Shown: positions 2,003 through 33,839 of the stretch, piece after piece
Layout: each line of letters begins with the position of its first letter
Position numbering within the stretch: the stretch's first letter is position 1
Assembly: GCF_900609055.1 (NCBI RefSeq)
Contig: NZ_UXAW01000081.1
Coordinates: forward strand, 1-64,000
DNA from: Pseudogemmobacter humi
Lineage (GTDB): Bacteria > Pseudomonadota > Alphaproteobacteria > Rhodobacterales > Rhodobacteraceae
Reading direction: 5' to 3'
DNA: 64,000 bases
The notes under the pieces: generated by a model
Seen by the model: the letters and a program-made list of their open reading frames with translations, nothing else
Database searches by the model: none
What the model was told of the DNA's origin: nothing
Program-made: the position numbers and the translations under genes

Positions 2003-2770
2003 TCATCCCCGGAAATGCAGCCCGCCGCCGGAGAGGGCCTCACGATGGACGGGAACCTCGTAAAGGGCCGACAGGCGTTCCGCGGTCATCACCCCGCGCA
2101 CCGGGCCGTCGCCAAGAACCTGGCCCCGGCCCACCAGCAGGGCGCGGTCGCCCAGGGTGGCGGCCTGATCCGGATCGTGGGTCGACAGGATCACAGCCGT
2201 GCCCCGGTCCGCCAGGTCGCGGATCGCCCGGCCCACCCGGATACGGTTGGCGAAATCCAGGCTGGCGGTCGGTTCGTCCATCACCACGGTGCGCGCGCCC
2301 TGCGCCAGGGCCCGGGCGATCAGCACCATCTGGCGCTGGCCGCCGGAAAGGCGCGTGATCTCTTCCTCCGCCAGTGCGGCGATGCCGAGCGTCTCCATCG
2401 CTTCGGTCGCGCGCAGGGTCTCGGCCGCTCCGGGGCGGGCAAAGGGGCCGAGGCGGATCGCGGCGCCCATCAGCACGAGGTCCAGCGCCCGGAAAGCGAA
2501 AGGGGTGGAGAGCGATTGCGGCACATGCGCCAGCAGGCAGGCGATCCGGCTGCGGGGCATCATGGCAAGCGGCTGGCCCTCCAGCAGCACATCGCCGGCC
2601 ACGGCGGGCAGCAGGCCCAGAAGGGTGCGGAAAAGCGTGGTCTTGCCCGCGCCGTTGGGGCCCAGAAGGCACAGCACCTGGCCCGGCCCGAGTGACAGGT
2701 CGATGCCGGACAGCACCGGGCGCCCGCGATGGCCGACGCTCAGGCCGCGGGTCTGCAAAAGCGGGATCAT
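2003..2770 (-). CDS. metal-chelate/oxyanion ABC transporter ATPase (FecE/BtuD/MolC type)
   Basis: A 255-residue ABC ATPase. Walker A GPNGAGKTT is at residues 37-45, the signature LSGGQ at 141-145, Walker B VVMDEP at 162-167, and a switch His in LSTHD. It closely fits ATPases that pair with FecCD permeases. The ATG at 2768-2770 overlaps the permease stop by 4 bp (ATGA), which decides the start over a longer in-frame option. It is the last gene of the leftward DUF2478-Mop-TsaA-binding protein-permease-ATPase operon. Because of Mop and the molybdate-type boxes I favour molybdate or tungstate as substrate rather than iron chelate or B12; this is inference. Confidence 0.9.
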   Translation of the reverse strand: MIPLLQTRGLSVGHRGRPVLSGIDLSLGPGQVLCLLGPNGAGKTTLFRTLLGLLPAVAGDVLLEGQPLAMMPRSRIACLLAHVPQSLSTPFAFRALDLVLMGAAIRLGPFARPGAAETLRATEAMETLGIAALAEEEITRLSGGQRQMVLIARALAQGARTVVMDEPTASLDFANRIRVGRAIRDLADRGTAVILSTHDPDQAATLGDRALLVGRGQVLGDGPVRGVMTAERLSALYEVPVHREALSGGGLHFRG

Positions 2771-3756
2771 TCCGCCCATCCGCGGCTGCCCCGCGCCAGC
2801 AGCCACACGAAAACCGGGGCGCCGATTACCGCGGTCAGGATGCCCAGGGGCACTTCCGTCAGGGCGATGGAGCGGGCCGCGGTATCTGCCGCCACCATGA
2901 AGGCGGCGCCTGTCAGAATGGCGGCGGGCAGCAGCCGGTCGAAGCGCGATCCGGTCAGGAGCCGCGCCATATGCGGCACCATCAGCCCGATCCAGCCGAC
3001 CACTCCGGCCATGGAAACCGCAGCCGAGGTCATCAGCGTGGCGCAGACGATGATCATCAGCCGCAGGCGGGTGGCCTCGATCCCCAGCATCTTTGCCTCA
3101 TCATCGCCAAGCGCCAGCAGGCCGATCCGCCAGCGCAGCAGGACCAACGGCAGCAGCCCCGCCAGTATGGCGGGCAGGGCGGCAAGGACATCGGCGCGTT
3201 TGGCTCCGGCCAGGCTGCCCATCAGCCAGAAGGTAATGGCGGGCAGTTGCTGCTCGGGATCGGCCAGCAGCTTGACCAGCGAAATCCCGGCCCCCGCCAG
3301 AGCGCCAACCGCAATGCCGCACAGCACCATGACCAGCACCTGGCCGCCGCCGCGCAGCGAGAAGGACAGGAACAGAACCAGCGCGACCGTGGCCAGCCCG
3401 GTGGCGAAGCCGGTCAGCTGGATCGCCAGCACCGGCAGGCCGAGAAGGATCCCGAGCACCGCGCCGAACCCCGCGCCCGCCGAGACGCCGAGGATATCGG
3501 GCGAAACCAGCGGATTGCGGAAGGCGGTCTGATATGCGGCGCCAGCCGCCGCCAGCGCCGCCCCCACCAGGGCCGCGGCGAGGACCCGGGGCAGACGGAT
3601 GTTCCACAGCACGGTTGCGGACTGGCTGTCGCCTCCGCCGCTCAGCACGGCCGCAATCTGGCGCAGCGACAGCGGGAAGGGGCCGATCGCCACTCCGGTC
3701 AGCAACACCGCCACCAGACCCGCAAGCAGCAGGGGGGTGAGCCTGCGTTCACTCAC
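2767..3756 (-). CDS. FecCD-family ABC transporter permease
   Basis: A 329-residue, strongly hydrophobic inner-membrane protein of the FecCD/BtuC family, with about ten predicted membrane segments. Family signatures include RLPRVLAAALVGAALAAAG, GVSAGAGFG and the coupling region GWIGLMVPHMARLL. It forms the channel for substrate delivered by the periplasmic binding protein encoded just upstream. The start is a GTG (3754-3756) that overlaps the end of the binding-protein gene by 8 bp; its stop overlaps the ATPase start. MolB of Haemophilus, a molybdate permease, belongs to this same family. Confidence 0.92.
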   Translation of the reverse strand: MSERRLTPLLLAGLVAVLLTGVAIGPFPLSLRQIAAVLSGGGDSQSATVLWNIRLPRVLAAALVGAALAAAGAAYQTAFRNPLVSPDILGVSAGAGFGAVLGILLGLPVLAIQLTGFATGLATVALVLFLSFSLRGGGQVLVMVLCGIAVGALAGAGISLVKLLADPEQQLPAITFWLMGSLAGAKRADVLAALPAILAGLLPLVLLRWRIGLLALGDDEAKMLGIEATRLRLMIIVCATLMTSAAVSMAGVVGWIGLMVPHMARLLTGSRFDRLLPAAILTGAAFMVAADTAARSIALTEVPLGILTAVIGAPVFVWLLARGSRGWAE

Positions 3757-4780
3757 CCAGAAGCACCGAAAGGGCGGCCTCGTCGGGTGTCACGCCGTAG
3801 AAGAGGCCGTAGAATTCCGCCACTTCCGCCCGAAGGTCGCCCTGGGCGCGGTCGGGAAAGAATTTGTGCGCCAGCCATTTCAGCCCGATCAGCCGGTTGA
3901 CCGAGGGCGGCGCGTCGATGAAGCCGAAAGGCGCGTCGGGGGCCAGGTAGACACGGCCGTTTGTCACCGCCGGAATGCCTTGCCATTCCGGCATCATGCC
4001 GACATTGGCGGCGAAATCCCGGTCGATGGTGATGATGATGTCCGGCGCCCATGCCTGCACCTGCTCGGCGCTGACGGTGGCAACATTCCCGGCCCCTCCG
4101 GCGGCGACGTTGCGCCCGCCCGCCCGCTCGATGATCTCGGCATTGATCGAGCCGCTGATGGCGGTCTCCAGCCCCTCGGGCCCGCGGGCGAGATAGACCC
4201 GGGGCCGCTGATCCCCGGGGATTCCGGCCAGCAGCGCGTCGGTTTCTGCCAGGGTGGTCTCGGCATAGGCGGCCAGCATCCCGGCGCGGTCGGGCACCGC
4301 CAGCACATCGCCCATCTGGCGGATCGAGCCGGGCAGCGCCGCGAAAGAGCCGTCGATCAGGACATAGGGTATACCGGACTGCTCCTGCACCCGGGCCGCA
4401 AGGTCGGTATAGGTGGCGTTCACCGTGCCGTAATCGACGATCAGCTCCGGTGTTGCGGTCAGCAGCACCTCAAGGTTCAGCGTGTCGCCCTTGCCGGTCA
4501 GCCGGCCGAGTTCGGGCAGCGCCGCCGTCCCGGGCCGCAGAAAGGGCAGGTCATGCGCGTCGGGCGCCTGGACCCAGCCGACCATGGCTTCGGGCTTCAG
4601 CACATAAAGCAGGGTCGAGGCCGGCGGACCGGCGGCAAAGACCCTGGCGGGGTTCGCCGGGACCTGCACCTCGCGCCCGGTCGCATCGGTGACGCTGCGG
4701 CCGTCCAGCGCCAGCGCCGGCAGGGCCGCCAGCGCGGCAAAAACCGCGGCTTTCAGCGCGGTTGCGGAGAAGGATCGCAC
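3749..4780 (-). CDS. periplasmic substrate-binding protein (BtuF/MolA fold)
   Basis: A 343-residue precursor. From a GTG start at 4778-4780 it begins with a signal peptide (RSFSATALKAAVFAALAALPALA), and the mature part starts VTDATGREVQVPANPARV, typical of the PF01497 periplasmic-binding fold used for B12, ferric chelates and, in MolA, molybdate. No ATG lies near the signal peptide; the frame stays open upstream, but the GTG placement is the only one that gives an export signal. It overlaps the end of the TsaA-like gene by 28 nt. Substrate is inferred from context. Confidence 0.85.
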   Translation of the reverse strand: MRSFSATALKAAVFAALAALPALALDGRSVTDATGREVQVPANPARVFAAGPPASTLLYVLKPEAMVGWVQAPDAHDLPFLRPGTAALPELGRLTGKGDTLNLEVLLTATPELIVDYGTVNATYTDLAARVQEQSGIPYVLIDGSFAALPGSIRQMGDVLAVPDRAGMLAAYAETTLAETDALLAGIPGDQRPRVYLARGPEGLETAISGSINAEIIERAGGRNVAAGGAGNVATVSAEQVQAWAPDIIITIDRDFAANVGMMPEWQGIPAVTNGRVYLAPDAPFGFIDAPPSVNRLIGLKWLAHKFFPDRAQGDLRAEVAEFYGLFYGVTPDEAALSVLLGE

Positions 4781-5238
4781 CAGAGGGCTCCGAATTCGGG
4801 TTTGAGATCGATCAGCGGCGTGCCGTCCACGCAGTCCAGCCCGCGGACGATCAGCACGCTGCCCTCGACCGCCAGCAGCCGCACCACCGAGGAGGCGACA
4901 GGATTCGGCCGCAGCGGCGAGCGGATGGCGAAAGTGCCGACGGAACTGTCGGCGAAGGCCGGATTTTGCCGCACCGCATCGCGGCGCGACAGGTGCATCC
5001 AGTAAAGCACCTGAAGGTTCTGATGCCTGCCGATTCCCTCCAGCGCCGCGGCCCAGCGGTCGTCGATCTCGATCCGGCAGGGCGGTCCGTTCCCGATATC
5101 CCCGCGCCTGGGACAGTCGCTGCGCTGCTGCCAGGGCGTGCGGATGCGGCCGATGAACCACAGCCCGGCGTCGAAGGCGCCGGGCAGGGCGACGGCTTCC
5201 TCATGCGGGCGCAAAGGATCGGTCAGGGTCTCAGTCAT
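4753..5238 (-). CDS. TsaA/TrmO-family protein (UPF0066)
   Basis: A 161-residue protein of the TsaA/TrmO family, SAM-dependent enzymes whose E. coli member N6-methylates t6A37 in tRNA-Thr. Family blocks are visible: LYWMHLSRRD, RSPLRPNPVASS and DGTPLIDLKPEF near the C-terminus. It is clearly shorter than E. coli TrmO (about 235 residues) and lacks the C-terminal part, so tRNA methylation is not assured. It lies inside a metal-uptake operon, overlapping mop by 8 bp and the binding-protein gene by 28 nt. Co-translation suggests a role in metal or ligand handling, but that is only inference. Confidence 0.8.
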   Translation of the reverse strand: MTETLTDPLRPHEEAVALPGAFDAGLWFIGRIRTPWQQRSDCPRRGDIGNGPPCRIEIDDRWAAALEGIGRHQNLQVLYWMHLSRRDAVRQNPAFADSSVGTFAIRSPLRPNPVASSVVRLLAVEGSVLIVRGLDCVDGTPLIDLKPEFGALWCDPSPQPR

Positions 5239-5440
5239 CGACCCCGACCATCACATCCGAGGCCTTGATCACGGCGGCCGCGGGCTTGCCGACCGCCAGA
5301 TCCAGTTCCTGCACCGCCGCATTGGTGACCGAGGCGGTGACGATGGCGCCGCCGATGTCGATCCTGACATGGCTGGTCACCGCGCCGGTGACGATCTCGA
5401 CCACCTTGCCGCGCAGGATGTTCCGGGCGCTGAGCTTCAT
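5231..5440 (-). CDS. mop: molbindin (Mop-type TOBE protein)
   Basis: A 69-residue single-TOBE-domain protein. It starts MKLSARNILRGKV and continues with VTSHVRIDIGG and VTNAAVQELDLAVG, the standard signature of molybdenum-pterin binding proteins (Mop), which form hexamers that bind molybdate or tungstate in the cytoplasm. The start at 5440 has a GGGAG ribosome site 7-8 nt upstream. Its stop overlaps the next gene by 8 bp. Its presence is the main protein-level clue that the surrounding transporter handles Mo or W. Confidence 0.93.
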   Translation of the reverse strand: MKLSARNILRGKVVEIVTGAVTSHVRIDIGGAIVTASVTNAAVQELDLAVGKPAAAVIKASDVMVGVDD

Positions 5441-5493
5441 CGGTATTCTCCCTTTCGGACAGGTCGGTTCTGGCAGGTCAGGCTTCGGGCAGG

Positions 5494-6003
5494 TCAGGCG
5501 GCCTGCGCGCGGCAGGCGGCGCGCAGCCAGTCCATCACCAGGCCGGCATCGGCTTCCAGCGGCTGTGCGGCGCCGCCCGCGAAGGCGAGGAAGGCCGCAC
5601 GCCATTCCGGCGCGACGCCGACAAGCACCGGCTGCCCGGCGGCGCAGGCGCGGCCGATGGCCTCGACCAGCCCGCGGCCCGCCGCCTCCTGCTTGCCGAA
5701 CTTGTTCACCACCAGCGCCTGAGCCATCGGCAGACGGTCGTGAACCTCGATCACCGCCTCTTCCAGCGCCCCCGCGTCCAGCCGGCAGCCGGTGGCGCCG
5801 GGGCCTAGGTCCATGCTGATGCTGCGCAGCGGTCCGTCGGGCAGCAGATGCAGCACGATCTCGCATTTCTGCTGCGGTTCGGGGCCGACGGGCTGAACCG
5901 TCCCGGCCAGCCGGATGCCTTCGCGCGCTGCGCGTTCGGCCACTTCGGACAGGATGGCGTTGGTCTGCTGGTCCTGGTCGGAACTGACGTATCGGATGTC
6001 CAT
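5494..6003 (-). CDS. DUF2478 protein, molybdenum-transport associated
   Basis: A 169-residue cytosolic protein of the DUF2478 family, members of which are usually annotated as molybdenum ABC-transporter associated and look like nucleotide-binding proteins. It has the conserved blocks CRLDAGALEEAV and VVNKFGKQEA(A)GRG, and a C-terminal VLVGVAPEW. No function has been established that I know of. It is the first gene of the leftward operon; its ATG (6001-6003) lies about 50 nt from the centre of a molybdate-box-like inverted repeat at 6041-6065, which places it under likely ModE/MopA-type control. Confidence 0.85.
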   Translation of the reverse strand: MDIRYVSSDQDQQTNAILSEVAERAAREGIRLAGTVQPVGPEPQQKCEIVLHLLPDGPLRSISMDLGPGATGCRLDAGALEEAVIEVHDRLPMAQALVVNKFGKQEAAGRGLVEAIGRACAAGQPVLVGVAPEWRAAFLAFAGGAAQPLEADAGLVMDWLRAACRAQAA

Positions 6004-6040
6004 CTTCGGCCCCCTGCGAGTCGGCCCCCTTGTCGGGGTT

Positions 6041-6065
6041 CGTTATATATGATGATACATATCTG
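6041..6065 (-). promoter_or_regulatory. molybdate (ModE/Mop) box, DUF2478 side
   Basis: The sequence contains TATAT (6044-6048), seven bases, then TACAT (6056-6060), an exact fit to the ModE core TATAT-N7-TAYAT, preceded by CGT as in the full consensus. It lies 38 nt before the DUF2478 start. ModE and the Rhodobacter MopA/MopB regulators bind such sites with molybdate and usually repress uptake genes. The match is seen; the regulator is not encoded in this window. Confidence 0.75.
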
Positions 6066-6158
6066 TTCCGGGTTGCAAGCCGGAAGCTGCCCGGACGCCG
6101 CCGATGCAGCAAAACCACAGTTATGCCGCCACCACGAAAGACGGGTCTTGCCGGACTG

Positions 6159-6187
6159 ATCGGATATGTTTCTTTAAACATAACGAT
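6159..6187 (+). promoter_or_regulatory. second molybdate-box-like inverted repeat, receptor side
   Basis: An inverted repeat with arms TATGTTT (6165-6171) and AAACATA (6176-6182), bracketed by ATCG on the left and CGAT on the right. The outer ATCG...CGAT ends and the TA-rich arms resemble the longer Mo-box consensus, but the spacing differs from the TATAT-N7-TAYAT core. It ends 49 nt before the TonB receptor ATG, mirroring the first box on the other side. Confidence 0.55.
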
Positions 6188-6236
6188 TCGCCAGACCTTC
6201 TCCGAAGGCTGTGCCCGAGGAGGAGGAAACCCGCCG

Positions 6237-8381
6237 ATGAGACTGCCCGAAAGCCTGCTGCACCGCCTGATCCTTGCCGGGATGATGATCCCCGACCTGT
6301 CGCTTACCCCGCTGATGGCCGAGACGACGGCAAAGGACACTTTCTTCCTCGGCACCATCTATCTGGGCCAGGAACAGGACGGCCAGGGCGGCACCACCGC
6401 CAAAGTCACCGGCGAAGAGGCCAGGAAGGCGGGCCGCTCCACGCTGAACGATACGCTTGCGACCCTGCCCGGGGTGTCGACGATCAACACCAGCGGCGGC
6501 AGCCGGAACGAGCCGATGGTCTTCGTGCGCGGCTTCGGCCGCTGGCATGTGCCGCTGTCGATCGACGGCATCCGCATCTTCCTGGCCTATGACAACCGTC
6601 TGGACTACGGCCGCTTCCTGACGCCGGACCTGGCGGAGATCCAGGTGCAGAAAAGCTATGTCTCGGTGCTGAACGGCCCCGGCGGCATGGGCGGCGCGAT
6701 CAACCTCGTGACAAAGAAGCCCACCGAGGTTTTCGAGGGCGAGGCACGGATCGGCATCGAGGGCGGCCAGGGCGATGTCAGCGGCAGGAACGGCTATCTC
6801 TCCTTCGGCACGAAGCAAGAGAAATGGTATGCCCAGGCGAGCTGGATGAAGCGCAAGAGCGACGGATTCTGGCTGTCCGGGGATTTCGTTCCGGTGCCGA
6901 ACGAGGATGGCGGGCTGCGCGACAATGCGGATAGCTCGGATGACCGCGTGAACCTGAAATTCGGCCTCACGCCCAATGCGACCGACGAATATGTGCTGAG
7001 CTACACCAGACAGACCGGCTCGAAGAATGCGCCCTACAGCACCCGGCAGCCGATGCGCGGCGTGACCTGCGGCGCCCCGGTTTGCGTGGGCAGCACACAG
7101 CGCGACTGGACCTGGCCGGAATGGGACATCTCCAGCCTTGCGCTTTATACCCATACCGATCTGGGCGGCAGCTATGTGAAGACGAAGGTCTATTACAACA
7201 CCTTCGACAACACGCTTTCGGCCTGGGACAATCCGGCCCACACGACCCAGCTGACCGATGCGCCGCGGATTTTCGATTCCGTCTATGACGACCATTCCGT
7301 CGGGGCGAGCGCCGAATACGGCCTGACGATGGCGGCGCATGAATTGAAATTTGCGGTGCATTTCCGGCGCGATGTCCATCTGGGAACCGATTATCCGGTG
7401 CCGGGTCTGGCCCTGAATCCGAAGCCCACCGAGCGGAACGAGTCGGAAACCCTCTCCTTCGCGGTCGAGGACAGCTGGCAGGTCTCCGACCAGCTTCGCG
7501 TCATCGGCGGTTTCAGCTTCAACAAATCAAAGGTGATCGAGGCTCTGCGGACCCTCACCCCCTCGGGCGTATCGCCCAGCACGCCTCCCGCATATTCGCA
7601 GGTGTCCTATCCCCAGGTATCCAGCGAGGCGCTGGACTGGCAGCTTGCCGCCATCTGGGCGCCCGATGCGGGCGGAGAGGTTCACGCCAGCGTTTCGTCC
7701 CGGACCAGCTTTCCGACCATGTTCCACCGCTACAGCACCCGTTTCGGCCTGATGGAGCCGAACCCGGATCTGAAGGCCGAGCGCGCGGCGAATGTCGAGA
7801 TCGGCTACAGCGGCGATATCGGCCCGGTCAGGGTGGAGGGCGCGCTCTTCTACAGCCGCGTGACCGATCTGATCCAGTCGGTGGTCTATGACGCCTCCAC
7901 CAGCCCCGCGACCTTGCAGCAGCAGAACGTCGGCAAGGGCGTCTACAAGGGCGTGGAGCTTGCGGCGAGCTGGGCGATGAATGATCGCCTCGGCCTGTCG
8001 GCGAACTACACCTATATCGACGCCGGTATCGAGGATCCCGCGATCACCGGATTGCGGATCACCGATATTCCGCGACACAAGGTCTATCTGGCGCTCGACT
8101 GGCAGGCGACCGATAGTCTGACCGTCACACCCTCGGTCGAGATCTACGGTTCCCGCTGGTCGGACCCGGCCGCCGGACAGCCGGGCGGGGCCAGCCCTGC
8201 CTATGCCTATACCAGGATGCCCGGCTTCGCCCTGGCCAACTTCAGCGCAAGCTGGCAGATGAGCGAGAATGCCACCATGGATTTCGGCATCCGCAACATC
8301 TTCGACCGCGATATCCAGGTGGTCGAGGGCTTCCCCGAGCCGGGCCGGACCTTCTTCCTGACCTCAGGCATCCGGTTCTGA
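6237..8381 (+). CDS. TonB-dependent outer-membrane receptor, putative Mo/W uptake
   Basis: A 714-residue TonB-dependent receptor. A signal peptide of about 28 residues is followed by a TonB-box-like FLGTIYLG, a plug domain (LNDTLATLPGVSTIN, MVFVRGFGRWHVPLSIDGI, GGMGGAINLVTKKP) and a 22-strand barrel ending in an aromatic residue (GIRF). The ATG at 6237 is preceded by a strong AGGAGGAGG ribosome site, so upstream in-frame codons are unlikely. It is divergent from a Mop-containing ABC transporter operon and separated from it by two molybdate-box-like repeats. It therefore probably imports an oxyanion or a chelate of molybdenum or tungsten; family members otherwise take iron chelates or B12. Intrinsic terminator at 8479-8528. 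Confidence 0.88.
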   Translation: MRLPESLLHRLILAGMMIPDLSLTPLMAETTAKDTFFLGTIYLGQEQDGQGGTTAKVTGEEARKAGRSTLNDTLATLPGVSTINTSGGSRNEPMVFVRGFGRWHVPLSIDGIRIFLAYDNRLDYGRFLTPDLAEIQVQKSYVSVLNGPGGMGGAINLVTKKPTEVFEGEARIGIEGGQGDVSGRNGYLSFGTKQEKWYAQASWMKRKSDGFWLSGDFVPVPNEDGGLRDNADSSDDRVNLKFGLTPNATDEYVLSYTRQTGSKNAPYSTRQPMRGVTCGAPVCVGSTQRDWTWPEWDISSLALYTHTDLGGSYVKTKVYYNTFDNTLSAWDNPAHTTQLTDAPRIFDSVYDDHSVGASAEYGLTMAAHELKFAVHFRRDVHLGTDYPVPGLALNPKPTERNESETLSFAVEDSWQVSDQLRVIGGFSFNKSKVIEALRTLTPSGVSPSTPPAYSQVSYPQVSSEALDWQLAAIWAPDAGGEVHASVSSRTSFPTMFHRYSTRFGLMEPNPDLKAERAANVEIGYSGDIGPVRVEGALFYSRVTDLIQSVVYDASTSPATLQQQNVGKGVYKGVELAASWAMNDRLGLSANYTYIDAGIEDPAITGLRITDIPRHKVYLALDWQATDSLTVTPSVEIYGSRWSDPAAGQPGGASPAYAYTRMPGFALANFSASWQMSENATMDFGIRNIFDRDIQVVEGFPEPGRTFFLTSGIRF

Positions 8382-31292: not shown

Positions 31293-31436
31293 GACCGATT
31301 CCCGGCGGAAGCGGCAGGCAACGTCGCGGCGGCGGCTCTCTGTCGCGATTGCGCTGCGTTCCCCGTCCGGTGTTGCACGAAAGCATCGCAATCCTGTGTC
31401 TTTCACTCAACTAAAAGGAGTGACTGTCGCAAAATG

Positions 31437-31464
31437 TTGACGGGGGGGCCGCGCGGGCTAAGAA
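31437..31464 (+). promoter_or_regulatory. candidate promoter of siderophore receptor
   Basis: TTGACG (31437-31442), a 16-bp GC-rich spacer and TAAGAA (31459-31464). It would give a leader of about 125 nt that includes the hairpin at 31552-31584. No Fur, Irr or RirA box was recognised with confidence. Confidence 0.35.
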
Positions 31465-31551
31465 CCGGACTCAAGCCAATACAGGTCGCCGTCCGGCACC
31501 TGCCCGATAGTCTTACAGCAAGCCATTCGCCAGCTGCCACCGACGCCTCCG

Positions 31552-31584
31552 CCCTGCCCTGGGGCAGGGATATTTTTGCTTTTT
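31552..31584 (+). terminator. hairpin plus T-tract in leader (candidate attenuator)
   Basis: A 7-8 bp stem (CCCTGCCC with GGGCAGGG, 31552-31569) is followed by ATATTTTTGCTTTTT. This is an intrinsic-terminator shape directly before the ribosome site and ATG (31596) of a TonB receptor gene. It either ends a short upstream transcript or works as an attenuator of the receptor. Confidence 0.6.
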
Positions 31585-31595
31585 GGGAGCACGAC

Positions 31596-33839
31596 ATGAC
31601 CCCTTACGAGAAAAGGCCGGCAGCCGTCGATCAGACCGCGCGGCCCCTTCCCACCCTGGGCCTGCTGCCCGTTCTGGCCGTCTCGGCCGTGATGGCCGGC
31701 GAGGCCGGCGCCCAGACCGTGCGCACCGCCGACGAGCAGGATCTCGGCACGATCCTTCTTCAGGCCGGTGGCGAAGGCGGTGAGGCCGCCAACAGCTACA
31801 AAGTGACCGAGAGCGACAACGACAAGGCGACCGCCCCGCTGCTCGACACGGCCAAAACCGTCACTGTCATCACCTCGAAACAGATCAAAGAGCGTGGCGC
31901 GACCTCGCTGACCGAGATCCTGCGCACCACTCCCGGGGTCACGCTGGGAACCGGCGAGGGCGGCTCGCCCGCAGGCGACAAGCCGCTGATCCGCGGCTTC
32001 GATGCCCAGTTCGACATCATGGTGGACGGCATGCGCACCGGCGCGCGCACCAGCTATGAAGCCTTCAATCTCGAAACCGTCGAGGTCGCCAAGGGCCCCG
32101 ACAGCACCTATGCCGGACGCGGCTCGGCGGGCGGTTCGATCAATCTGAACACCAAGGCCCCGGTCGAGGGCGAGTTCGACGAGGCTTCGCTTTCCTTCGG
32201 CACCGGCTCGTTCAAGCGCGCCACGCTGGATTCCAACCGGAGCTTCGGCGATCTCGGTCTGCGGCTGAATCTGATGGTCCAGGACGCCGACGACCTCGGC
32301 GGCCGCAAGGGCGTGACCTCGGAACGCTACGGCATCGCGCCGAGCCTGAGCTACCAGATCGGCGAGAATTCGAAGGTGACCGCCGGTCTCTACTATCTCA
32401 AAGACAACGACATGGTCGATTACGGCGTTCCCTTCACAGGGGCGAACACCGACCCGGCCTGGCGCCGCGGCTCGGGCACGATCGATGACCCTTACCTGCC
32501 GATGGATGTGCCGACCGACTGGTTCTACGGCATCCACAGCCGCGACTTCCGCGAGGTGGAATCCGCCTCGGGCTATCTGCGCTTCGAGCATGATTTTTCG
32601 GACAACCTGCGCTGGACCAGCGTTCTGCGCAAGAATCGCGACACCAATGTATATGTCGTGACCAAGCCGAACGCGAACCTTGCGGGCGTCGCCGGCACCC
32701 GGCTGGAATCGCGCAACGCCAACAAGCTGACCGAGACGCTTTCCTTCAACAGCCAGCTGTCGGGCAGCGCGAACTGGCTGGGCGTCGATCACAGCTTCGT
32801 CGTCGGCGTGGACATCTCGCGCGAAAAGACCTCATCGGGGGCGGTGACCATCACCAATCCCGACGGCTCGGCGATCGTGACCGGCGGCATTCCGGTGGTG
32901 GGCTGGGGCGATGCGCCCAACCCCTGGGTGAACTATCCGGTGCTTGTCACCGTCGGTCCCTATAACCAGTTCAGCACCACGAAGACCCGCGCGGTCTATG
33001 CGGTCGATACGATCAGCTTCTCGTCGCAGTGGGAGGCCACCATCGGCCTGCGCTACGACGATTTCCGGGTCAGCTTCGACGAAACCACCCCGGCGCGCCT
33101 CGACAACAACAGCTACATGCTGAACGGCTCGGCCGCGCTGAACTACAAGCCCGCCGAGAACGGCAGCGTCTATCTGGCTTTCAGCACCTCCTCGAACCCC
33201 TCCAGCGAGGGCGCGGGTCTGGGTGGCAACCCCTCTGCCGCGACCGTCAACCTCGACCCCGAGCGCAGCAAGAGCTACGAACTCGGCACGAAATGGTCGC
33301 TGTTCCAGGACAGACTGCTCCTGACCGGTGCTCTGTTCATGACCGAAAAGGACAACATGCGCGTCACCACCTCGCCTGGCGTCACCGAACTGGTCGGCAA
33401 CACCACGGTCAAGGGTGTGGAACTCAGCGCCGCCGGCCAGATCAACGATCAGTGGGGCATCGTCGCCGGATACGTCTATACCGACGCCGAGCTGAAGGAC
33501 GACGGCCCCACCGCCACCAACGACGGCAACATGATCGCGGGCGTGCCGAAACACAGCTTCTCGCTCTGGTCCACCTGGGATCTCGCCAATGGCGTGACCC
33601 TGGGCGGCGGCGCGACCTATATGAGCAAGCGCTACGTCAATGCTGCGAACACCGCGGCGGTTCCTGCGGCCTGGCGCGTCGATCTGATGGCCTCTTATGC
33701 CCTCAACGACGCGACCTCGCTGCGGCTCAACGTCAACAACGTGTTCGACGAACAGCTCTACGGCGGGTCGTGGAACGGCCAGTTCGTCAATGTCGAACCG
33801 GGCCGCAACTTCACGCTGTCGCTGAACCACTCGTTCTGA
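31596..33839 (+). CDS. TonB-dependent siderophore receptor (PiuA/Fiu-like)
   Basis: A 747-residue receptor. The signal peptide ends at GEAGAQ (about residue 40), then TonB-box-like DLGTILLQAG, plug domain (KTVTVITSKQIKERGATSLTEILRTTPGVTLGTGEGG, PLIRGFDAQFDIMVDGMR, YAGRGSAGGSINLNTK) and a barrel ending LSLNHSF. Plug motifs match catecholate-siderophore receptors. A piuC-type hydroxylase gene lies downstream, as in piuA-piuC loci. I chose ATG 31596 because it has GGGAG 6 nt upstream and gives a signal peptide; the frame is open to 31434. Terminators bracket the gene. Confidence 0.92.
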   Translation: MTPYEKRPAAVDQTARPLPTLGLLPVLAVSAVMAGEAGAQTVRTADEQDLGTILLQAGGEGGEAANSYKVTESDNDKATAPLLDTAKTVTVITSKQIKERGATSLTEILRTTPGVTLGTGEGGSPAGDKPLIRGFDAQFDIMVDGMRTGARTSYEAFNLETVEVAKGPDSTYAGRGSAGGSINLNTKAPVEGEFDEASLSFGTGSFKRATLDSNRSFGDLGLRLNLMVQDADDLGGRKGVTSERYGIAPSLSYQIGENSKVTAGLYYLKDNDMVDYGVPFTGANTDPAWRRGSGTIDDPYLPMDVPTDWFYGIHSRDFREVESASGYLRFEHDFSDNLRWTSVLRKNRDTNVYVVTKPNANLAGVAGTRLESRNANKLTETLSFNSQLSGSANWLGVDHSFVVGVDISREKTSSGAVTITNPDGSAIVTGGIPVVGWGDAPNPWVNYPVLVTVGPYNQFSTTKTRAVYAVDTISFSSQWEATIGLRYDDFRVSFDETTPARLDNNSYMLNGSAALNYKPAENGSVYLAFSTSSNPSSEGAGLGGNPSAATVNLDPERSKSYELGTKWSLFQDRLLLTGALFMTEKDNMRVTTSPGVTELVGNTTVKGVELSAAGQINDQWGIVAGYVYTDAELKDDGPTATNDGNMIAGVPKHSFSLWSTWDLANGVTLGGGATYMSKRYVNAANTAAVPAAWRVDLMASYALNDATSLRLNVNNVFDEQLYGGSWNGQFVNVEPGRNFTLSLNHSF

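Follow-up and report, generated by a model that had tools for sequence, protein, structure and literature searches.

A locus of Pseudogemmobacter humi, in which a TonB-dependent receptor (TBDR) gene lies divergent from the genes of an ABC importer and a molbindin, raises the question of whether molybdenum (Mo) or tungsten (W) may be actively imported across the outer membrane, since molybdate is usually taken to enter the periplasm passively. The locus was analysed within a window of 64,000 nucleotides (positions 1 to 64,000 of contig NZ_UXAW01000081.1). A search of open-licence PMC full text retrieved no paper on a TBDR for Mo or W; in the portion available, a review on Mo uptake names ModABC, sulfate transporters and MolBCA, and both "porin" and "TonB" are absent from its main text (PMC7759655). 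Judging from the sequence, the locus very probably represents a ModE-controlled, TonB-energised uptake system for Mo or W, either free or chelated.

The receptor gene (positions 6,237 to 8,381, forward strand) encodes a protein of 714 aa with plug and barrel domains (PF07715 and PF00593; AF2 model). It is divergent from an operon on the reverse strand (6,003 to 2,003), which encodes, in order, a DUF2478 protein (5,494 to 6,003; PF10649, 1.7e-45), a Mop molbindin (5,231 to 5,440; TIGR00638, 77.4 bits against a cut-off of 55), a TrmO_N (TsaA)-domain protein (4,753 to 5,238; PF01980), a periplasmic binding protein (PBP) with a MolA-like fold and a GTG start (3,749 to 4,780; PF01497), a FecCD-type permease (2,767 to 3,756; PF01032, 2.1e-87) and an ABC transporter ATPase (2,003 to 2,770; PF00005, 3.4e-27). 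The first-pass annotation had described a FecCD-type ABC transporter encoded with Mop and a DUF2478 protein, divergent from a TBDR, and Pfam and NCBIfam matches recovered all of these parts in place; the genes that it named in the operon thus stand, while the TrmO_N-domain gene between the mop and PBP genes had been overlooked. This gene is the sole PF01980 match in the whole genome (2.9e-26) and falls slightly below the cut-off of TIGR00104 (91.1 against 93.25 bits). The permease, ATPase and PBP genes occur together in a single operon, as expected of a MolBCA-type importer.

The two molybdate-box-like repeats previously noticed between the divergent genes proved to be real. Mo-box 1 (CGTTATATATGATGATACATATCT, 6,041 to 6,064) is located 38 nt before the DUF2478 start and differs from the E. 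coli ModE consensus at two positions, while Mo-box 2 (GGATATGTTTCTTTAAACATAACG, 6,162 to 6,185) is located 52 nt before the receptor start and differs at five, being weak against that consensus and exact against the local motif. Both are palindromic at 16 of 24 positions, and they account for two of the three sites in the 64-kb window with at most five mismatches to the consensus. A pattern built from both boxes had no other match genome-wide at up to three mismatches. A looser motif (CGTTATRT-N8-AYATATC), drawn up after a box at modA was already suspected, matched exactly only at this locus. A single site with one mismatch precedes modA, and another four with two mismatches are at approximately the control level (three control hits). 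The ModABC system, which unlike the receptor locus is an inner-membrane system, shares its type of regulator. A third, weaker box copy precedes modA, and a modE-HTH gene (120 aa; E-value 9.7e-23, 82 bits against a model cut-off of 98.5) precedes modABC in the same genome. A promoter scan of the intergenic gap identified no sigma-70 promoter.

To assess the boxes across the receptor family, sites were scored against the published E. coli ModE consensus (PMC545781), allowing at most 4 of 16 mismatches and a spacer of 6 or 7 within 600 nt upstream. A box was present upstream of family receptors in 80 of 100 loci (a count that leaves out the four genus loci L046, L047, L050 and L051), the corresponding figures being 0 of 17 for other TBDRs and 125 of 2000 for random windows; a stricter count (N6 spacing only, 450 nt) returned 55/79, 0/18 and 25/1000, respectively. 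Of 43 sites with at most three mismatches in 1.42 Mb, 33 were upstream of the receptor, and four of the other ten lay directly before DUF2478, mop or PBP genes. An earlier count from longest-ORF starts (44/80 versus 0/17) was superseded because longest ORFs extend over the box. The Bartonella and Rhodovulum receptors and one Caulobacter receptor were wrongly regarded as box-less, as their 25-bp boxes with a 7-nt spacer (11 loci, 0 to 4 mismatches) become visible only with a variable spacer. ModE is encoded in 47 of the 50 receptor-bearing genomes examined (ModE and modA being examined for 50 of 80 contig loci) as opposed to 98 of the 385 class genomes sampled, among which all four that bear the receptor possess ModE; a box with at most four mismatches was found in 41 of the 47 genomes with ModE and in none of the three without. 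The earlier proposal that receptor, binding protein and ABC importer form one energised pathway, probably under ModE/MopA-type repression, thus gains support from outside the window.

It was also considered whether the locus serves the uptake of iron (as siderophore or haem) or of cobalamin and adjoins a Mop gene by chance, as the highest-scoring families for the FecCD permease, the PBP and the receptor are those of iron and B12 systems, the PBP is structurally close to YiuA, and the related E. coli cluster is called iron uptake in databases and papers. However, all 25 receptor models listed of the 26 matched remained under their own cut-offs, including the BtuB model TIGR01779 (102.2 against 599.7 bits) and the siderophore/haem models TIGR01783 (127.4 against 223.5) and TIGR01785 (125.2 against 316.85). 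No riboswitch, cobalamin or otherwise, was detected in the 64-kb window, and the gap between the divergent genes contained no Fur site (the best Fur-box having 8 of 19 mismatches) and no Irr or iron-rhodo motif. Family scores, riboswitch scan and operator scan therefore lend this reading no support, and, given the distribution of ModE boxes between family receptors and other TBDRs, it is considered highly improbable.

The receptor reading frame is open from position 6,030, although its likely start is the ATG at 6,237, which by eye follows a GAGGAGG ribosome site and opens a signal-like N-terminus. Plug (7.6e-14) and barrel (8.2e-43) domains both score over their Pfam cut-offs, and the AF2 model (pLDDT 85.4, pTM 0.86) displays a TBDR fold, with which Foldseek agrees. 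An FxLGxI segment is conserved (L38 and G39 being invariant in alignment A6), and enterobacterial members carry LTVWSSP; these segments are candidates for a TonB box near the mature N-terminus. Foldseek ranked the copper receptor OprC first (7.5e-32, 16% identity), with Fiu and PirA almost level. Like the receptor described here, OprC is by its entry title a TonB-type receptor for a metal, but the metal differs, and the identity is too low for the ligand to be read from it.

The catechol siderophores azotochelin and protochelin bind molybdate, and the receptor could accordingly be a dual-use receptor for a catechol (or similar) chelate, in which a metallophore carries both Fe and Mo and ModE adds Mo control. 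The receptor model is about as similar to Fiu and PfeA as to OprC, and the likeness of the PBP to YiuA points in the same direction. Against this, a reading of 25 of the 71 Pfam families in 93 neighbouring ORFs turned up no gene for metallophore synthesis, and the locus carries no iron regulatory site of the kinds sought above; we regard such dual use as unlikely, if the least implausible of the alternatives.

The PBP has a MolA-type fold and is homologous to MolA, although its nearest solved relative is not MolA. MolBCA of Haemophilus influenzae is rated as a lower-affinity system (PMC7759655), and, unlike for the window locus, the text available describes neither a receptor nor a ModE box for it. 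The R. capsulatus MorABC system was rejected as a known parallel, being similar to ModABC and mentioned without any receptor in the text available. An outer-membrane partner for molybdate has been claimed in print for T6SS-ModA-IcmP of P. aeruginosa; that system, as far as the accessible text describes it, comprises a secreted ModA and the insulin-cleaving metalloproteinase IcmP and, in contrast to the window locus, no TBDR (PMC8602904).

The first-pass annotation had also called for a search for receptor, FecCD and Mop genes in other genomes. Within 9 kb of the receptor, 104 loci contained a FecCD importer in 44 cases, a TrmO-like gene in 30, Mop in 26, DUF2478 in 21 and ModD in four. The neighbours vary: some receptors adjoin a FecCD importer accompanied by Mop, DUF2478 or ModD, others a new secreted protein with a di-haem peroxidase, and in one genome (L145) the receptor is divergent from modABC with a box in between. 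Among 32 genomes examined that lack a FecCD importer at the receptor, 29 possess modA and three show none. The sphingomonad subclass, which is without the FecCD cassette, was at one point taken to be unrelated to Mo; its boxes and ModE argue otherwise. The three genomes without a detected modA are a caveat on the Mo link of this subclass.

These three genomes are also compatible with a receptor that imports not the metal but an organic compound needed at Mo shortage, such as a pterin or other precursor or the substrate of a Mo-free bypass. ModE also controls non-transporter genes, and accessory enzymes (TrmO-like, methyltransferase, ModD, di-haem peroxidase) are encoded near the receptors. This explanation is nevertheless improbable, as Mop and a MolA-like PBP share one operon here, one receptor is divergent from modABC, and modA accompanies most of the importer-less receptors.

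For the favoured Mo/W uptake system, whose gene content, conservation, conserved boxes, co-occurrence with ModE and MolA-type fold were observed directly, we infer binding, transport and repression in the following course. Judging from the position of the boxes, ModE would leave both of them when the metal is scarce, and both promoters would fire. The receptor would bind Mo or W outside the cell, as oxyanion or chelate, and TonB would drive it into the periplasm, where the MolA-like protein would pass it to the FecCD importer; ModABC would take over in those genomes whose receptor has no importer of its own beside it. Cytoplasmic Mop may buffer the oxyanion, while DUF2478 and the TrmO-like protein (in enterobacteria, ModD and the methyltransferase) may perform a further step, perhaps organic-ligand handling. 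If so, some bacteria spend energy on a dedicated outer-membrane step for Mo or W, as for iron, and chelated or very scarce Mo would represent a selective pressure; the operator, receptor and binding protein of the locus lend themselves to direct testing.

The receptors probably constitute one monophyletic, ModE-controlled Mo/W TonB receptor family of alpha- and gammaproteobacteria with swapped inner-membrane partners (FecCD with Mop/DUF2478/TrmO, FecCD with ModD and methyltransferase, or ModABC), which includes the PrrA-type receptor carried by approximately 39% of complete E. coli genomes. In sphingomonads, the family would cooperate with the new secreted protein and a di-haem peroxidase, perhaps so that a Mo chelate is released or converted. 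The tree leaves out ten of the 104 loci (the four genus loci named above, L078, L080, L083, L093 and, for their short frames, L084 and L095), and at least two rows of alignment A2 (L104 and L123) resemble wrong-frame ORFs.

The E. coli relative of the locus is the prrA-modD-yc73-fepC cluster (CFT073 island; O157 OI#55), to which locus L043 was assigned by gene content and position. Its receptor is homologous to that of the window (approximately 30% identity over 91%) and falls on the receptor family's side of the tree, while the FecCD permease, PBP and ATPase display 54, 33 and 41% identity, respectively. The cluster is one operon rather than a divergent pair and contains ModD and a methyltransferase where the window has Mop, DUF2478 and the TrmO-like protein. 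The ModE box is shared, with zero mismatches before the first gene and zero or one in five of five further strains (six copies in total). The same type of switch at many proteobacterial receptors, including that of E. coli, suggests a little-noticed active outer-membrane route for Mo or W, and the cluster, described in print as presumed iron uptake and present in 2102 of 5426 complete E. coli genomes, would then move to Mo/W uptake.

The TonB-dependent receptor (TBDR; 6237-8381, plus strand), which comprises a plug and a barrel, is divergent from minus-strand genes encoding a DUF2478 protein (6003-5494), Mop (5440-5231), a TrmO_N-domain protein (5238-4753; the sole PF01980 match in the genome), a periplasmic binding protein (PBP; 4780-3749), a FecCD permease (3756-2767) and an ATPase (2770-2003). 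Every part named in the first-pass annotation was found in the window, although that gene list had overlooked the TrmO_N-domain gene. Since adjacent genes from mop onward share between a few and 28 bases at their ends, they likely form a single operon. The window is part of contig 75 of a 4.47 Mb genome, and the closest named receptor relatives, among the best 80 of 386 in a genome-contig scan, belong to Paracoccus and Pseudogemmobacter. The AF2 model of the receptor was good (pLDDT 85.4, pTM 0.86) and resembled TBDRs generally, the leading hits of the structure comparison, to OprC, Fiu and PirA, being almost equal. A nearby minus-strand gene (922-1362) encodes what we take to be a pseudoazurin-like copper protein; such proteins have a role in denitrification.

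The two molybdate-box-like repeats initially reported between the divergent genes are indeed present as imperfect palindromes, one at 6041-6064, 38 nt ahead of the DUF2478 gene, the other at 6162-6185, 52 nt ahead of the receptor gene. A pattern built from both had no other match genome-wide at up to three mismatches. A looser pattern, CGTTATRT-N8-AYATATC, devised after a box at modA was already suspected, matched exactly at these two boxes and with one mismatch at a third site upstream of modA (position 15296 of contig C97 of the same genome), while four extra sites with two mismatches are close to the reversed-control level (three). The third site is flanked on one side by a gene encoding a ModE DNA-binding domain of 120 aa and on the other by modA, which belongs to an ordinary modABC operon, and by this pattern the window locus and modABC therefore share one operator type. 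The ModE ahead of modABC (L017:6909-7271) consists of the DNA-binding domain alone and has no molbindin domains.

For cross-genome tests the E. coli ModE consensus core, CGNTATATA-N6-TATATANCG, was taken from print (PMC545781) in order to avoid circularity. Receptor relatives were drawn from plasmid records (23), genus genomes (8 of 13, own genome included), the genome-contig scan, of whose 386 hits the best 80 were confirmed, and a sample of the phylum (9 of 398, again with the own genome). Within 450 nt upstream, an N6 box departing from the consensus at no more than 4 of 16 positions preceded 55 of 79 family receptors; such a box preceded 0 of the 18 other TBDRs and occurred in 25 of 1000 windows drawn at random from the same loci. 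When the spacer could be N6 or N7 and the upstream limit was raised to 600 nt, the figures at up to four mismatches were 80 of 100 family loci, among which near-copies are still present, 0 of 17 other TBDRs and 125 of 2000 random windows, which possibly contain receptor promoters themselves; at five mismatches they were 94, 1 and 244, respectively. The second, distant TBDR of the window (31434-33839), which served as a control, has no ModE box (8 mismatches). Four loci of the same genus, three of them broken or frame-shifted, were excluded from the 100; boxes are present in L046, L047 and L051, and L050 shows box-like sites by the local pattern. For two of the 20 loci with no box at up to four mismatches upstream of the receptor (E. 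coli L043 and L144), a perfect one precedes the leading gene of an operon whose last gene is the receptor. Across 1.42 Mb (80 loci), 33 of 43 sites with at most three mismatches lie upstream of a receptor, and four of the other ten directly precede DUF2478, mop or PBP genes (L097, L108, L054 and L074).

ModE, looked for in 50 genomes out of 80 contig loci, is encoded in 47 (each at E 1.5e-16 or better), compared with 98 in a sample of 385 genomes of the class (threshold E 1e-13); the box and ModE counts are uncorrected for kinship, the N6 box label requiring 17 changes on the receptor tree. A box at up to four mismatches occurs in 41 of these 47, while the three genomes lacking ModE (two Neomegalonema and one acidobacterial MAG) have none. 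In the class sample, four genomes carry the receptor, all with ModE. Bartonella, Rhodovulum and one Caulobacter had been considered exceptions to the N6 box, until 25-bp versions with a 7-nt spacer were found, e.g. CGTTATATAGATAAACTATATAGCG; loci with such boxes are L066, L067, L070, L088, L089, L091, L094, L122, L039, L110 and L126. The 25-bp box is the best site in 9 of 10 genomes whose ModE passes the TIGR00637 cut-off and in 1 of 40 others, and regulator and operator may possibly co-vary. In a FastTree phylogeny, the 94 kept family receptors, including enterobacterial and pseudomonad members, fall on one side of a branch (SH-like support 99) from 17 other TBDRs, whose long branches are of a kind that this program readily joins.

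Within 9 kb of the receptor, a FecCD importer is encoded at 44 of 104 loci, a TrmO-like protein at 30, Mop at 26, DUF2478 at 21 and ModD at 4. A ModA or ModB homologue lies within this distance at six loci, not always adjacent. At L145 (5889-10658) the receptor is divergent from a modABC-type operon (ModA, ModB and ModC homologues of 48, 60 and 52% identity), with a 4-mismatch ModE-like box in between, and on a P. aeruginosa plasmid record it adjoins moaA and narGHJI, its box there having two mismatches. A second arrangement, chiefly in sphingomonads, has no importer at the receptor locus. As modA is present in 47 of the 50 genomes examined, and in 29 of the 32 whose receptor locus has no FecCD importer (absent from L087, L114 and L123), ModABC could provide the inner-membrane step in most importer-less genomes. 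In place of the importer, this second arrangement features a protein of about 165 aa that looks secreted, encoded within 9 kb at 37 of 104 loci (e.g. L111:8325-8846, with a conserved HGHGPxCSxIRK segment); it has no Pfam match and, from its alignment (17 rows, at least two doubtful), would represent a new family. It is often accompanied by a MauG-type di-haem peroxidase, found at 26 loci. Within the genus, the receptor is broken in one genome (L050:6825-7946) and most of the locus in another (L051:6770-10691), although the L050 operon genes are still 78-94% identical to those of the window; the locus looks accessory.

In the proposed mechanism, ModE would repress both promoters, the receptor and TonB would effect the outer-membrane step, the PBP and FecCD importer, or ModABC, the inner-membrane step, and Mop would act as a cytoplasmic buffer. 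Given a ModE without molbindin domains, one might speculate that the operon's Mop is a candidate molybdenum sensor. By analogy with metal-ion TBDRs such as OprC, free oxyanion is a plausible receptor ligand; the recurrence of enzymes near receptors (TrmO-like, methyltransferase, ModD, di-haem peroxidase) suggests that an organic ligand is handled. No published description of such a TonB-type receptor was found in the portions of the open-licence PMC literature consulted.

In plasmid records of E. coli, homologues of the receptor are part of an operon ordered PBP-permease-ATPase-methyltransferase-ModD-receptor, which by gene content and position (L043) appears to be the prrA-modD-yc73-fepC cluster (OI#55). 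In print, this cluster was proposed to function in iron uptake (2007; PMC1890555) and described as 'possibly mediating iron uptake' (2026; PMC12928451). Its first gene in L043 is preceded by a ModE box with no mismatch, and in further strains the box has zero or one mismatch (5 of 5), with changes that largely keep the consensus, the box sequence having been read in six copies only. Cluster DNA is present in 2102 of 5426 complete genomes, and the promoter region in 2098. In one E. coli strain (L159:1-285), an IS1 element lies immediately upstream of the cluster's ModE box.
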